Assembly (NCBI GenBank): GCA_019246575.1
Contig: JAFAQG010000867.1
Span: forward strand, 1-6,057
Direction of reading: 5' to 3'
Source: Acidobacteriaceae bacterium
GTDB lineage: Bacteria; Acidobacteriota; Terriglobia; Bryobacterales; Bryobacteraceae
DNA length: 6,057 bases
The position numbers and the translations under genes are program-made. Shown here one piece after another: positions 322-4,485 of the stretch (position 1 is the first letter of the stretch; each line of letters begins with the position of its first letter). The notes beneath the pieces are model-generated. The model made no database searches, was not told the origin of the DNA, and saw only the letters and a list, made by a program, of their open reading frames with translations.

Positions 322-789
322 CTATTCGATAGGAGGCGCTCCGGGAGTGGGCGCCGTAGAATTCGGAGTTGATGCAGCCGGTGCGGATGCAGGTGCGGCG
401 GTGCTACCGCTTAGGGGTAAAGCGGTAGTGGCCTCGTGCTTTGGGCCAAGGCCGAGGCCGATTAAGCTGAGGGCGGTGATCTTGCCGTCGGGCTCGAGCT
501 TCTGGTCAGCCTGGAAGCGCTTCAGAGCATCGACCGAATCATCGCCCCAGATGCCATTTACTTCACCATGAAAATAGCCCCGGTCTGCCAGCGCTCTCTG
601 GATCTCCTGGTAACGTTCCGGATCGGGATGGAGTTGATATACAGGCGCGGCTTGCCGCCGAACGCGGCTGCGTACGGACCGTCGCTTAGTGCCCGAGGGG
701 GCGGGCTGAGACTTTGTTTTTGCCTGTGGATTCGCTTGTAACAGGACGGACGCGGCTCCCAAAAGGAGGAGTATCAGAACCCGCATCAC
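322..789 (-). CDS. Secreted protein with a peptidoglycan-binding (PGB_1-like) domain
   Basis: This is a small exported protein expected to bind cell-wall peptidoglycan. It has no enzymatic domain. The start is GTG 789-787 or the adjacent ATG 786-784; an in-frame TAA just upstream excludes anything longer. Residues 1-19 (MMRVLILLLLGAASVLLQA) form a signal peptide with a short n-region and hydrophobic core. Residues 22-47 are a basic, low-complexity linker. Residues about 57-113 match the peptidoglycan-binding domain 1 fold: DPERYQEIQRALADRGYF, then a GEVNGIWGDDSVDALKRFQ core and a final KLEPDGKITALSLIGLGL. The last 40 residues are rich in Ala, Pro, Ser and Thr, like a wall-spanning or disordered tail. 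It is the first gene of a probable unit with ald. Its precise role is unknown: it could be a wall-anchoring module or an accessory to a hydrolase. Confidence 0.86.
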   Translation of the reverse strand: MMRVLILLLLGAASVLLQANPQAKTKSQPAPSGTKRRSVRSRVRRQAAPVYQLHPDPERYQEIQRALADRGYFHGEVNGIWGDDSVDALKRFQADQKLEPDGKITALSLIGLGLGPKHEATTALPLSGSTAAPASAPAASTPNSTAPTPGAPPIE

Positions 790-869: not shown

Positions 870-1028
870 ATGCCTTTCAGCACAACGGACTTACGCCGGC
901 GGAATGTGTCATACTTTTGGTTCATTACTACTAAGCAAGCGCGCAAAACGGGCGCGGGGTCAAGCGCCCCGCCGAAACAACAAAAGAGTTTGGTTGCTTG
1001 TCGGGCAGCGCGCCCCTTGCGCCAGTGA
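870..1028 (+). CDS. Putative aromatic leader peptide (52 codons) in front of the DAHP synthase gene
   Basis: A short open frame runs from ATG 870 to TGA 1026-1028 and has no recognisable protein family. Residues 15-18 are Tyr-Phe-Trp-Phe (codons TAC TTT TGG TTC, 912-923); the only other aromatic residue is Phe3. Such a run directly before a gene for the first enzyme of aromatic synthesis is what a ribosome-stalling leader would show. The start is uncertain: ATG 870 has only a weak GTGAG about 10 nt upstream, and an in-frame GTG at 906 would give a 40-residue peptide beginning just before the run. After the run the peptide is basic and low in complexity ([18 protein letters not shown]), suggesting that its product is not a folded protein. 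The TGA overlaps the GAGG of the next gene, and 7 nt separate this stop from that start, so termination-reinitiation coupling is possible. Chance occurrence cannot be excluded. Confidence 0.42.
950..972 (+). promoter_or_regulatory. Overlapping GC-rich hairpins in the DAHP synthase leader
   Basis: Two mutually exclusive stems can form. GGGCGC 950-955 pairs with GCGCCC 964-969 (8-nt loop), and GCGGGG 954-959 pairs with CCCCGC 967-972 (7-nt loop). A third, longer-range option pairs GGGCGCG 950-956 with CGCGCCC 1009-1015, because GCGCCCC occurs twice (964-970 and 1010-1016). The hairpins begin 26 nt after the Tyr-Phe-Trp-Phe codons. No U-tract follows, so this is not an intrinsic terminator as seen. 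Confidence 0.4.
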
Positions 1029-1030
1029 GG
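1027..1030 (+). promoter_or_regulatory. Shine-Dalgarno of aroF, overlapping the leader stop codon
   Basis: GAGG lies 5 nt before the ATG at 1036 and fixes that start rather than more distal in-frame ones. Its first two bases are the last two of the TGA (1026-1028) that ends the upstream small frame. Confidence 0.7.
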
Positions 1031-1035
1031 AACAC

Positions 1036-2073
1036 ATGATCGTCTCGATGAAGCTTCATGCGACAAAGGCCGAGATAGAGGGGGTATGCGCTCGCATACG
1101 AGAGTTCGGTTACAAAGTCCACTCGATCGAGGGAGAAGAACGGGTCGTCATCGGCGTCGTCGGCGTGGGAGACGTGACAGCGTGTCTCGAGTCGCTCGAG
1201 GCGATGCCTCAGGTCGAGAAAGCAGTGCGTATCTCGGCTCCGTATAAGTTTGTAAGTCGAGAGTTTCGGAAGACTAAGTCACAGATAGGCGCGAATGGGG
1301 TCGATATTGGCGGAGATGAGTTCATCGTCATGGCGGGGCCGTGCTCGGTGGAAAGCGAGAAGCAGATTGTAGAGACGGCCCAGTTTGTCGCGGGACACGG
1401 CGCACACTTTCTGCGAGGCGGCGCCTTCAAACCTCGAACCTCGCCGTATGACTTCCAGGGCATGGAAGTTGAGGGATTAAAGCTGCTGCGGCGGGCTAAA
1501 AACGAGACTGGGCTTGGAATTATCACGGAAGTAATGAGCGACAGAGATGTCGAGATGGTCGCTGAGTACGCCGACATTCTGCAGATTGGCGCTCGCAACA
1601 TGCAGAACTTCGCGTTACTGAAAGCGCTAGGCAAAGCAGATAAGCCGGTAATGTTGAAGCGTGGCTTAAGTTCGACGATCAAGGAGTTACTCATGTCAGC
1701 CGAGTACATTGTGGCGCATGGTAATCCGAACGTAATCCTGTGCGAGCGCGGCATTCGGACGTTCGAAACGGAAACTCGTAATACGTGCGACATCACGGCG
1801 ATCGCGGTATTGAACGAGCTATCGCATCTACCTGTGATTTTGGACCCGAGCCATGCGACCGGGAAGCGCAGCCTGGTGCCGGCGCTGTCGAAAGCGGGGG
1901 TCGCAATTGGCGCCGACGGTCTGATTGTCGAAGTGCATCCCTGCCCGGAAAAGGCGATCAGCGATGGTGCACAATCGTTGACGCTGAACCAGTTCGCGGC
2001 CATGATGGACGAGTTGAAACCATACTTCCGCCTGTGGAAGGAATCGCGCGTGCCCGCGCTGGCAAGCGCTTAA
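1036..2073 (+). CDS. aroF: 3-deoxy-7-phosphoheptulonate (DAHP) synthase, type I-beta
   Basis: This cytosolic enzyme condenses phosphoenolpyruvate with erythrose 4-phosphate to DAHP, the first step of the shikimate pathway. The product has 345 residues, close to the 338 of the Thermotoga maritima enzyme. Residues 1-70 form the ferredoxin-like regulatory domain that in the T. maritima enzyme mediates feedback by Tyr/Phe. The barrel domain follows with GPCSVE (101-106), [16 protein letters not shown] (127-142), [12 protein letters not shown] (181-192), PVMLKRG (204-210), DPSHATGKR (270-278) and [11 protein letters not shown] (292-302). The metal ligands Cys103, His273, Glu299 and Asp310 are each one residue later than in T. 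maritima (102, 272, 298, 309). There is no fused chorismate mutase. The start at 1036 is chosen for its GAGG at 5 nt; the 59-residue upstream extension does not look like family sequence. It is followed after 11 nt by an unknown membrane-anchored protein gene, probably co-transcribed. Regulation by the upstream leader is suspected. Confidence 0.97.
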
Positions 2074-2084
2074 GCGGCGGCTAA

Positions 2085-3005
2085 TTGACACAAATTCGCC
2101 CGAAGCCGTGGCTCTTGTTCACGCTGATCGGCGCTTTGGTTGCAGTATCGGTGTTTGGCGTCGACCGTTACCGACGCCGGTTCGTGCGGTCGAACGCGCA
2201 AATGGTGGCGTTACTTCCTCCTCGCGGTACGAAATTTTTTGTGGATGTCGCTGTCTTGCGCAGGGCAAATCTACTGTCGCTGCTTTCGGACCCCAAACGG
2301 GTTGAAGAGATGGATTACAGTCGATTCGTGCATGAAACGGGGTTCGATTATGCGAGGGATGCGGACGCGATTGCCGGCAGTGTGGAATCGAAGCAGATGT
2401 TTGTTGTTGTGCGTGGCCGGTTTCATTGGAGCGACATCCGGCAGTACGCCGCCGATCACGGCGGCAGCTGCACGGCGCATTACTGTAAGTTGCCAGCAAG
2501 TAAACGTGAATATAGTGCTTCGGTCGTCGAAATTCAACCCGATGTGCTTGGGCTCGCGCTCAGCGAGGATCCATCCGCAGCGACAATGCTGGTACGCCGC
2601 CGCGGTATGCCTTCCGAGCAGATACCGGCTCAGCCGGTTTGGGTGAAACTGTCGCGTTCGCTCCTCGAAAACCCGGTTAATCTGCCTTTGCCGGCACGCA
2701 TACTGACAATCACGCTGCAATCGGCCGATACCGTGACGCTTGCTCTCGATCGGGGTGAGTCTGCTGACGCGACATTCGAAGTGCACGTAAACGCAGAGTT
2801 TCCGAACCAAGCGGCTGCGGACACGGCGCGAAGACAGTTAGAGATTCAGACGAAGCTGTTCCAATTGGAGCTTGCGCGTGAACACGAACAGGCGAGCGCA
2901 TCGAATCTTTCGGGCTTGTTCGTTTCCGGAAGATTTCAGGCTGTGGGAAACAGGTTGTCGGGAAGCTGGCCGGTGAAAAGAGAGCTGCTCGAGGCGCTGC
3001 GATAA
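2085..3005 (+). CDS. Membrane-anchored conserved protein of unknown function, TTG start
   Basis: I do not recognise this family by name. The 306-residue product has one N-terminal membrane segment (about residues 9-26, LLFTLIGALVAVSVFGVD region), preceded by RPK and followed by RYRRR. The rest, including a segment LLPPRGTKFFVDVAVLRRANLL at 43-64, should be a soluble domain; the charges do not decide on which side of the membrane. The only two cysteines (C129, C134 in CTAHYC) are five residues apart and could form a disulfide if the domain is periplasmic. The segment about 244-270 is a charged, probably helical stretch. The TTG at 2085 is the first possible start, because an in-frame TAA (2082-2084) is directly upstream; the next ATG (codon 40) would delete the membrane anchor. 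GCGGCGG 4 nt upstream is a modest ribosome site. It lies 11 nt after aroF, so co-transcription is likely, but no metabolic link is visible. Confidence 0.8.
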   Translation: MTQIRPKPWLLFTLIGALVAVSVFGVDRYRRRFVRSNAQMVALLPPRGTKFFVDVAVLRRANLLSLLSDPKRVEEMDYSRFVHETGFDYARDADAIAGSVESKQMFVVVRGRFHWSDIRQYAADHGGSCTAHYCKLPASKREYSASVVEIQPDVLGLALSEDPSAATMLVRRRGMPSEQIPAQPVWVKLSRSLLENPVNLPLPARILTITLQSADTVTLALDRGESADATFEVHVNAEFPNQAAADTARRQLEIQTKLFQLELAREHEQASASNLSGLFVSGRFQAVGNRLSGSWPVKRELLEALR

Positions 3006-3147: not shown

Positions 3148-4425
3148 CTATTCCGGTTTGCGCTTACGCGGGCGGCGGGATGCACCGGCGCCGGATGGAG
3201 CCCGTTTGCGAGCAGGGGTCTTTTTCGGCTTGGGCGGGGGCGGATTCGGCTCGAAGATGGTGGGCTGGCCTTCGACGATGGGTTGCGGCTCGTCCTCCTC
3301 TTCGATGATGGCTTCGGGCGCGGGTTCGGGCAGCGCGGGCGGGTAGAACTCTGCGCCCAGGTGAACGATTAAGCCGCGTTCCTCGTCCAGTTCGGTTCTA
3401 ACCACGGTCTTGTCCTGAGCGTAATTTAGAAACTCGCTGAACTGTTGGAAACCGTACTTGGTAAGGCTGAATTCGGGATGCTCGGCTTGCATCCATTGTT
3501 CCAGCTCTTCGGCGGAAGCGCCATTTTCGAGCTCCATGCGGTGGGTTTCCAGGACGTCGCGAAGCAAGGGTAGGGCTTCCTCGGGTTTGGGAGCGACCTT
3601 TTCGTGCGCGGGACCGCCGCGGCGTTCGATGATATAGCGCCCGCCGGAGCCGCTGACATTGATGAATTCCGCCTTTTTGAGCTTGTCGACGAATTCCGAA
3701 AAACTTCCTGCGCCATATGCACGTTCGCTAAACGCCGGATCGAGCTGCAGCATGGTGCTTTTTAACAGGCCGAGCTGAGGCTGAACGGCACGGCGTTCGA
3801 GCACCTGTAACGCGCGCTCGACGAGCGGGACAGCCTGCGCGAGATCGAGGGGCGCGGGCCGTTGCCCACGATCGCGCTTGTCTTTCCGCTCGGGACGGTC
3901 GCCTCGCTCGGGCCGGTCGCGACGCTCGGGCAGGGGTTGCGGTACGATGCGGTCTCCATCCTCGAGCAATGACTCATAGCTGACAAATTCATGGCAGTTT
4001 TGCTGCAGGATGGTGCTGGTAAATGCCTTGCCGCCCAGAACAAAAACAGTTTTGCCATACTCTTTCAGCTTGTTAACCAGCGGAATGAAATCGCTGTCGC
4101 CGCTGACAATGGCGAAGGCATTCACATGCGCGTGCGTGAACGCCATCTCGAGGGCGTCGAGGGCCAAATTTATGTCTGCGCCGTTCTTGTCGCCGCGGGG
4201 CGACGGGATGCGTTGCACCATTTGGACGGCGTTCTCAGCCATCTGGCGTGTGGCGCCTTCCTGACGGCCCCAATTCGCGTAGGCGAATTTGGCGACGATA
4301 TCGCCTCGCTCTTTCAGCGCATTGAGCGTGAGTGACACATCGAAGTCGCGCCGCAGAGTCGATTTGACACCGATCTCGATGTTGTCGTAATCGACAAAGA
4401 CGGCGATGTTTAGTCTGTCTTGCAT
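3148..4425 (-). CDS. NYN-domain (LabA/DUF88-like) putative ribonuclease with tandem OST-HTH/LOTUS domains
   Basis: This 425-residue protein probably acts on RNA in the cytosol. Residues about 5-150 form a NYN (PIN-like) nuclease domain: AVFVDYDNIEIG (8-19), GADINLALDALEMA (82-95) and IVSGDSDFIPLVNKLKEYGK (106-125). The acidic residues expected to bind the metal are all present (Asp12, Asp14, Asp84, Asp110, Asp112), so the nuclease is likely active. A charged linker (about 160-192) contains three PERxDR-type hexapeptides. Two OST-HTH/LOTUS-like domains follow, at about 195-268 and 283-360, a fold known to bind RNA. Then come an acidic, proline-rich stretch and a Lys/Arg-rich tail (about 398-425). 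The start at 4425 is chosen because the protein opens MQDRLNIAVFVDYDN there, with AAGGG a few bases upstream; a start at 4485 would add 20 unlikely residues. It is divergent from the TonB-receptor gene and convergent with the aroF unit. The RNA target is unknown. Confidence 0.93.
   Translation of the reverse strand: MQDRLNIAVFVDYDNIEIGVKSTLRRDFDVSLTLNALKERGDIVAKFAYANWGRQEGATRQMAENAVQMVQRIPSPRGDKNGADINLALDALEMAFTHAHVNAFAIVSGDSDFIPLVNKLKEYGKTVFVLGGKAFTSTILQQNCHEFVSYESLLEDGDRIVPQPLPERRDRPERGDRPERKDKRDRGQRPAPLDLAQAVPLVERALQVLERRAVQPQLGLLKSTMLQLDPAFSERAYGAGSFSEFVDKLKKAEFINVSGSGGRYIIERRGGPAHEKVAPKPEEALPLLRDVLETHRMELENGASAEELEQWMQAEHPEFSLTKYGFQQFSEFLNYAQDKTVVRTELDEERGLIVHLGAEFYPPALPEPAPEAIIEEEDEPQPIVEGQPTIFEPNPPPPKPKKTPARKRAPSGAGASRRPRKRKPE
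3877..3930 (-). repeat. Three 18-bp in-frame tandem units encoding PERxDR-type hexapeptides
   Basis: Units 3913-3930, 3895-3912 and 3877-3894 (minus-strand order) encode PERRDR, PERGDR and PERKDK, residues 166-183 of the NYN protein. The first two are close at DNA level; the third has diverged. The repeat lies exactly in the linker between the nuclease and the first LOTUS domain. Confidence 0.8.
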
Positions 4426-4485
4426 GAAGTCCCTTCTGTGTCCGTCCCGCCAACGCCGTGAACGGCCCGAAGTAAGGCGGAGCAT

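Follow-up and report, generated by a model that had tools for sequence, protein, structure and literature searches.

In enterobacteria, the pheA and trp leaders feature a leader peptide, a terminator and a competing antiterminator. In Corynebacterium glutamicum, a leader peptide with the residues Phe-Tyr-Phe, AroR, is described ahead of the DAHP synthase gene aroF, whose transcription is said to rise upon phenylalanine limitation; tyrosine supply is reported to be without effect (available text of PMC11802643 and PMC4046766), a precedent that the initial annotation of the locus studied here also cites. For the ilvBNC leader of the same organism, a title cited in PMC4046766 states that the peptide arises with no ribosome-binding site. 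According to the accessible parts of a 2010 survey (PMC2965389), Proteobacteria and Actinobacteria had until then been the only groups with demonstrated leader-peptide systems, Firmicutes being its own addition, and the attenuators it predicts in Acidobacteria are almost all without an associated function. Acidobacteria are among the groups for which a further study (PMC4833913) tallies short leader genes in the vicinity of structural genes; its available text nowhere uses the terms aromatic, aroF or pheA. We found no literature on leader-peptide attenuators of this sort in Acidobacteriota.

Here we analyse a DAHP synthase locus within an acidobacterial DNA stretch of 6,057 nucleotides (the window, meaning the whole stretch) together with its relatives, and the results on both the window and the attenuator family are computational throughout. 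We propose, with a probability of roughly 85%, that aroF in this family was ancestrally, and in many members still is, under ribosome-mediated transcription attenuation, and that this control has been lost in the window, where an apparent run of aromatic codons is a promoter read as codons. The aroF attenuator constitutes a new, well-supported attenuator family with a mechanism of a kind already known. It resembles AroR in placing an aromatic leader peptide before a DAHP synthase gene, but its leaders also hold Trp and Tyr, belong to another phylum and apparently have other sequences. Like the enterobacterial pheA and trp leaders, it places a short leader peptide and a terminator with a rival antiterminator ahead of a gene for aromatic biosynthesis; unlike them, its leaders mix Phe, Tyr and Trp, appear to start almost without a 5′ untranslated stretch and match no Rfam family, and the gene product catalyses the opening step of the common pathway. 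The ilvBNC leader, as described, likewise does without a ribosome-binding site, but concerns other amino acids, another gene and another phylum.

The Aromatic Run in the Window Probably Reflects a Promoter

On the plus strand of the window, a 52-codon frame runs from an ATG at position 870 to a TGA at 1026-1028, ends in RQ* and contains the codons TAC TTT TGG TTC at 912-923, its stop falling 7 nt short of the aroF ATG at 1036, all as initially annotated; a 57-codon version of the frame (855-1025) yields no match in Pfam or NCBIfam. The downstream gene is indeed a DAHP synthase gene: aroF (1036-2073, plus strand) encodes a type I-beta enzyme of the PRK08673/DAHP_synth_1 kind with a ferredoxin-like domain, matching PF00793 and PF18152 and scoring 486.8 bits against the PRK08673 subfamily model (cut-off 335). 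Its neighbours are a peptidoglycan-binding-domain gene (322-789, minus strand), an NYN/OST-HTH protein gene (3148-4485, minus strand) and, directly after aroF, a gene for an uncharacterised 306-residue protein (2085-3005, plus strand) with no Pfam or NCBIfam match, which by eye is similar to frames found behind another DAHP synthase type (L166-L170).

Of 5000 dinucleotide shuffles of the 250 nt upstream, 0.5% contain four consecutive aromatic codons in a plus-strand frame; among 922 real pieces of the same length from L001-L038, read on one strand and including true leaders, 20 do. The annotation's view that such a run is rare by chance is borne out to the extent that the run is uncommon, but it is not extraordinary.

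The run is explained by a conserved promoter. In the closest relative found by aroF (L082, 87%), the segment TGTGTCATACTTTTAGTTCATG spans a −10 box and the leader start, ending in the leader ATG, and positions 905-926 of the window are identical to it at 20 of 22 bases; 2000 dinucleotide-shuffled versions of the upstream 250 nt reach 16 at most. By virtue of this match, the hexamer CATACT at 910-915 is a probable −10 box within a putative extended −10 promoter element, TGTGTCATACT (905-915, plus strand). Transcription starts about 7 nt after a −10 hexamer, and in the window it is predicted to start at ~922, just where the aromatic run ends; the run (912-923, plus strand) would then overlap the −10 box and fill the interval between it and the start, lying in or before the first transcribed bases and not, as initially supposed, inside the transcript. 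We further aligned the promoter with those of ten relatives from the window's clade (L001, L081, L082, L084-L088, L092 and L093). Contrary to the expectation that frame and run be kept in close relatives, the frame meets an in-frame stop at the position of the run in 7 of the 10 and holds the four aromatic codons in none (e.g., SYF*FM in L082 and AYY*FM in L001). The true leader ATG of L082 and L001, present in others as well, corresponds in register with the 52-codon frame to an ATT at 924-926 of the window (plus strand), and the alignment indicates that the leader ATG has there turned into ATT. In L082 and L001 the aromatic codons lie 3′ of this ATG, not 5′, and none follows the ATT in the same frame of the window.

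Were 870-1028 nonetheless a translated leader on which ribosomes stall at 912-923, the existence of so uncommon a run would be accounted for, and its SYFWF does also occur in the true leader of L001; set against the promoter conservation across the run itself, the interrupted frames of the relatives and the lack of a terminator after it, however, we regard this as extremely improbable. The run was rejected as a leader peptide on the grounds of promoter homology, and sequence and promoter alignment make the frame at 870-1028 probably no gene. The locus documents a trap: promoter DNA can pass for a run of aromatic codons.

A Predicted Attenuator Precedes aroF in Many Related Genomes

A search for relatives of aroF returned 80 loci, of which L001-L039 entered the upstream analysis, and a second search, across 237 family genomes, found aroF matches in 199 and contributed 30 further loci (L081-L110); the two sets are best aroF matches and not a random sample, and without the duplicates L090 and L102 they comprise 67 distinct loci. 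In 54 of these, a leader frame of 13-27 codons, rich in Phe, Tyr and Trp, and an intrinsic terminator are found before aroF: 49 in the alignment A1, three recognised by the covariance model introduced below (L022, L086 and L107) and two diverged ones (L015 and L037). The aromatic-sensing leader initially proposed ahead of aroF hence stands for the gene family and falls for the window, where we read the run as promoter DNA. The element is absent from the other 13 loci (L007, L011, L030, L039, L083, L089, L091, L092, L094, L100, L101, L103 and L106).

Leader peptides such as MPRRSSFSFRFWYRS (L019), MACFYASSFSYRFWHFA (L004) and MTAYAAYFYWFRFWFRPESCRRVPA (L093) frequently contain a Phe-Arg-Phe-Trp core, and strong conservation at the DNA level is seen in part of the leader, with the consensus TTTCGATTTTGG. 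Because the 49 leaders of A1 were chosen for their aromatic frames, frame counts within A1 are circular, and both this choice and the loci without the element speak against attenuation in the relatives. The terminator in A1 has standard pairs in 98.6% of cells over the 49 sequences, with three pairs changed on both sides, and is followed by a U tract. A segment X (columns 105-116; commonest form GAGTGGCGTTGG) adjoins or crosses the leader stop codon and pairs with the terminator 5′ arm (columns 157-167) in a computed antiterminator that is mutually exclusive with the terminator: 85.5% of A1 cells are paired versus 34-49% in slid registers, six pairs are changed on both sides, and 0 of 500 shuffles show covariation as high. 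X also pairs with leader codons, GCCAACTCG, in 78.3% of cells versus 42-61% when slid, which suggests a third pairing equivalent to the classical 1:2 hairpin; that it shows no covariation beyond shuffles is another point against attenuation. Apart from tRNA, no Rfam family reached its gathering score in L001, L003, L015, L019, L160, L161, L162, L166, L176, L177 or L178.

The diverged loci L015 (2824-2958) and L037 (173-312) have all the attenuator parts before aroF, with an aromatic leader beyond the reach of the model and an antiterminator/terminator of their own (CTCAGC-GCAA-GCTGAG-U tract). Their genomes measure 1.1-1.2 Mb and L015 carries the title Patescibacteria; if the titles hold, gene and attenuator were possibly transferred between phyla.

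A Proposed Switch on a Probably Leaderless Peptide

The start codon lies 8 or 9 nt past the best −10 box in 82 of 116 leaders, two having no box, and it is preceded by a Shine-Dalgarno-like 4-mer in one of the 116. Because of this spacing and the near-absence of the motif, the mRNA for the aroF leader peptide is probably leaderless, with few bases before the start codon. If confirmed, such starts would provide a test bed for the question of how leaderless translation stays in step with transcription.

From this architecture we infer transcription start, translation, stalling and an amino-acid response as follows. Transcription would begin a few bases or less from the leader ATG, and a ribosome would read the 13-27-codon peptide with its many Phe, Tyr and Trp residues. 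With ample charged aromatic tRNA, the ribosome at the stop codon would cover X and the terminator (CCCACTC-loop-GAGTGGG-U tract) would form before aroF; with charged tRNA in short supply, it would stall on the run, leaving X to pair with the terminator 5′ arm and aroF to be transcribed. The switch in the relatives probably senses the supply of Phe, Tyr and Trp.

Equilibrium folding of the 116 leaders, with 15 nt assumed to be covered by the ribosome and the terminator core placed by pattern, wrongly in a few rows (L013 has zero for both states), gave mean terminator/antiterminator probabilities of 0.93/0.004 for a ribosome at the stop, where the terminator was favoured in 116/116, and of 0.84/0.10 for the ribosome-free RNA. 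With the ribosome stalled mid-run the values were 0.50/0.45 and the antiterminator was favoured in only 55 of 116, which counts against attenuation, in a calculation that takes no account of the order of synthesis, in which X and the 5′ arm precede the 3′ arm. In a separate step, X was placed by pattern in 103 of the 116 leaders. The minimum-energy structures of L015 and L037 behave as a clean switch, with the antiterminator when stalled and the terminator with the ribosome at the stop.

Spread of the Predicted Attenuator and Its Probable Loss in the Window

The covariance model R1 matches up to 172 of the 237 family genomes at E ≤ 0.001, an upper figure given that some weak matches span the terminator only (G234, G132), and recognises the held-out loci L022, L107 and L086 with 102, 54 and 43 bits, respectively. 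Of 396 phylum genomes, R1 matches 41 at E ≤ 0.001, and only G001, G198 and G200, all of them also in the family set, score above 31 bits. A subset of 92 R1 hits was fetched, 90 of them distinct, and aroF follows in 89 of the 90 (median gap 17 nt, range 9-128), the other ending 40 nt from a contig end. All 67 fetched hits outside A1 hold an open frame that is no longer than 40 codons and includes four or more aromatic residues, a count over hits selected by R1, which still carries the sequence of A1. The strong conservation of part of the leader as DNA would also suit a protein or small-molecule binding site, riboswitch-like, in which the frame is a passenger; yet in the held-out hits the aromatic content stays though codons and residues change, and the related hisI leaders bear His runs instead, and we judge a binding site highly improbable and retain attenuation as the reading for the relatives.

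No intrinsic terminator was found between the run and aroF in the window, and R1 gives no match to the window at E ≤ 10 with filters off. Since its leader ATG is ATT and neither a terminator nor a model match is present, the window has lost the element, a 5′ untranslated stretch apparently taking the place of the attenuator at 924-1035 (plus strand). What survives is the promoter; with the start codon, the leader and the terminator all missing, aroF in the window's lineage should escape attenuation control. Some other control could conceivably persist in 924-1035, through an attenuator that has diverged strongly or a structure masking the ribosome-binding site: the sequence is GC-rich, a hairpin is possible (predicted folding energy of −40 kcal/mol for 922-1050), and L015 and L037 show leaders diverging past the model with all parts intact. 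The folding energy of 922-1050 is nevertheless that of shuffles (z = −0.01 versus 200 shuffles), the stretch has neither a U tract nor an aromatic leader frame, and no Rfam family reaches its gathering score in the window; retained control of this sort is unlikely in our estimation, and an RNA element in 924-1035 was rejected in view of the missing signal from folding against shuffles and from Rfam. We found no close relative sharing the 924-1035 stretch.

A tree of 36 aroF proteins places the window, for which we maintain loss of the attenuator, within a 19-row clade (support 100/96) where the element is kept in 12 rows and absent from 7, the window included. Since L092, which lacks it, pairs with the attenuator-bearing L085 (support 96/86) and L100, which also lacks it, groups with L095 and L096, which have it (support 92/92), multiple losses within the clade are likely, the base of the clade being poorly supported. 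At L092, TGTGTCATACTTTT lies ~25 nt before aroF: the promoter is kept and the leader gone. In five genomes of the clade that lack the element before aroF (G043, G044, G047, G051 and G055), R1 run with stricter filters matched no copy elsewhere, and relocation of the attenuator within the genome was rejected on this basis. Natural losses such as that in the window show the outcome without the switch.

By eye, L007, L011, L030, L101, L103 and L106 have a −10-like box 7-9 nt before the ATG of aroF itself. In these loci aroF may be leaderless, with the attenuator deleted.

Related Leaders before Other Genes

Weak R1 hits led to sister leaders before other genes, which were identified by Pfam. Leaders with His runs precede hisI in L160-L165, some recognised by eye from the DNA, and a His-run frame (e.g., MFVARHHRHHHHHHFGAIRAHA) is found in 28 of 30 hisI upstream regions of the family (L269-L298). 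A −10-like hexamer accompanies 27 of these 28 frames, 8-9 nt before the ATG in 25, in a script that preferred frames with a hexamer. Taken with the upper figure of 172/237 for the aromatic leaders, the 28/30 His leaders suggest that attenuation is routine in this acidobacterial family.

Outside the family, RYYWWYR and YFWCWY occur before two genes for anthranilate synthase component I, trpE (L176 and L143, respectively). Within it, a Trp leader was found in 0 of 30 upstream regions of anthranilate-synthase-like genes, a further point against attenuation from a set with 31-37% identity to the query that may include other chorismate enzymes and has some loci with short upstream sequence. We lean, by a modest margin over even odds, towards a broad and hitherto apparently unannotated attenuation regulon in Acidobacteriota that acts through probably leaderless leaders on aroF, hisI, trpE and genes for an aromatic hydroxylase, a class IV aminotransferase and a peroxiredoxin, the last with unexpected Cys codons, and from which single elements are repeatedly lost with the promoter kept, as in the window.

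Elsewhere in the phylum (29 DAHP synthase loci, L240-L268), compact aromatic frames, none of them accompanied by a normally spaced −10 box, occur at L249, L259, L263 and L267 and, in weaker form, at L242; one example reads VPSYYWYSWYWFSPRG.

Further frames were noted before other genes. At L178 (200-280), the Tyr-rich SYYYGYPYW precedes a gene for a biopterin-dependent aromatic amino-acid hydroxylase, a tyrosine-making kind of enzyme, and a single Leu/Ile/Val-rich leader, MTTPAVLLLLILVLVLVTQGAN, is found in two genomes (L149 and L150) before a class IV aminotransferase gene. We know of no Cys-run leader system before a peroxiredoxin; two distinct Cys-run frames from outside the family, SYCCRCCCC (L177, 309-383) and FRCCCCCN (L148, 1514-1585), both lead into a terminator-like hairpin whose tail is U-rich, with a gene for an AhpC/TSA peroxiredoxin beyond it.
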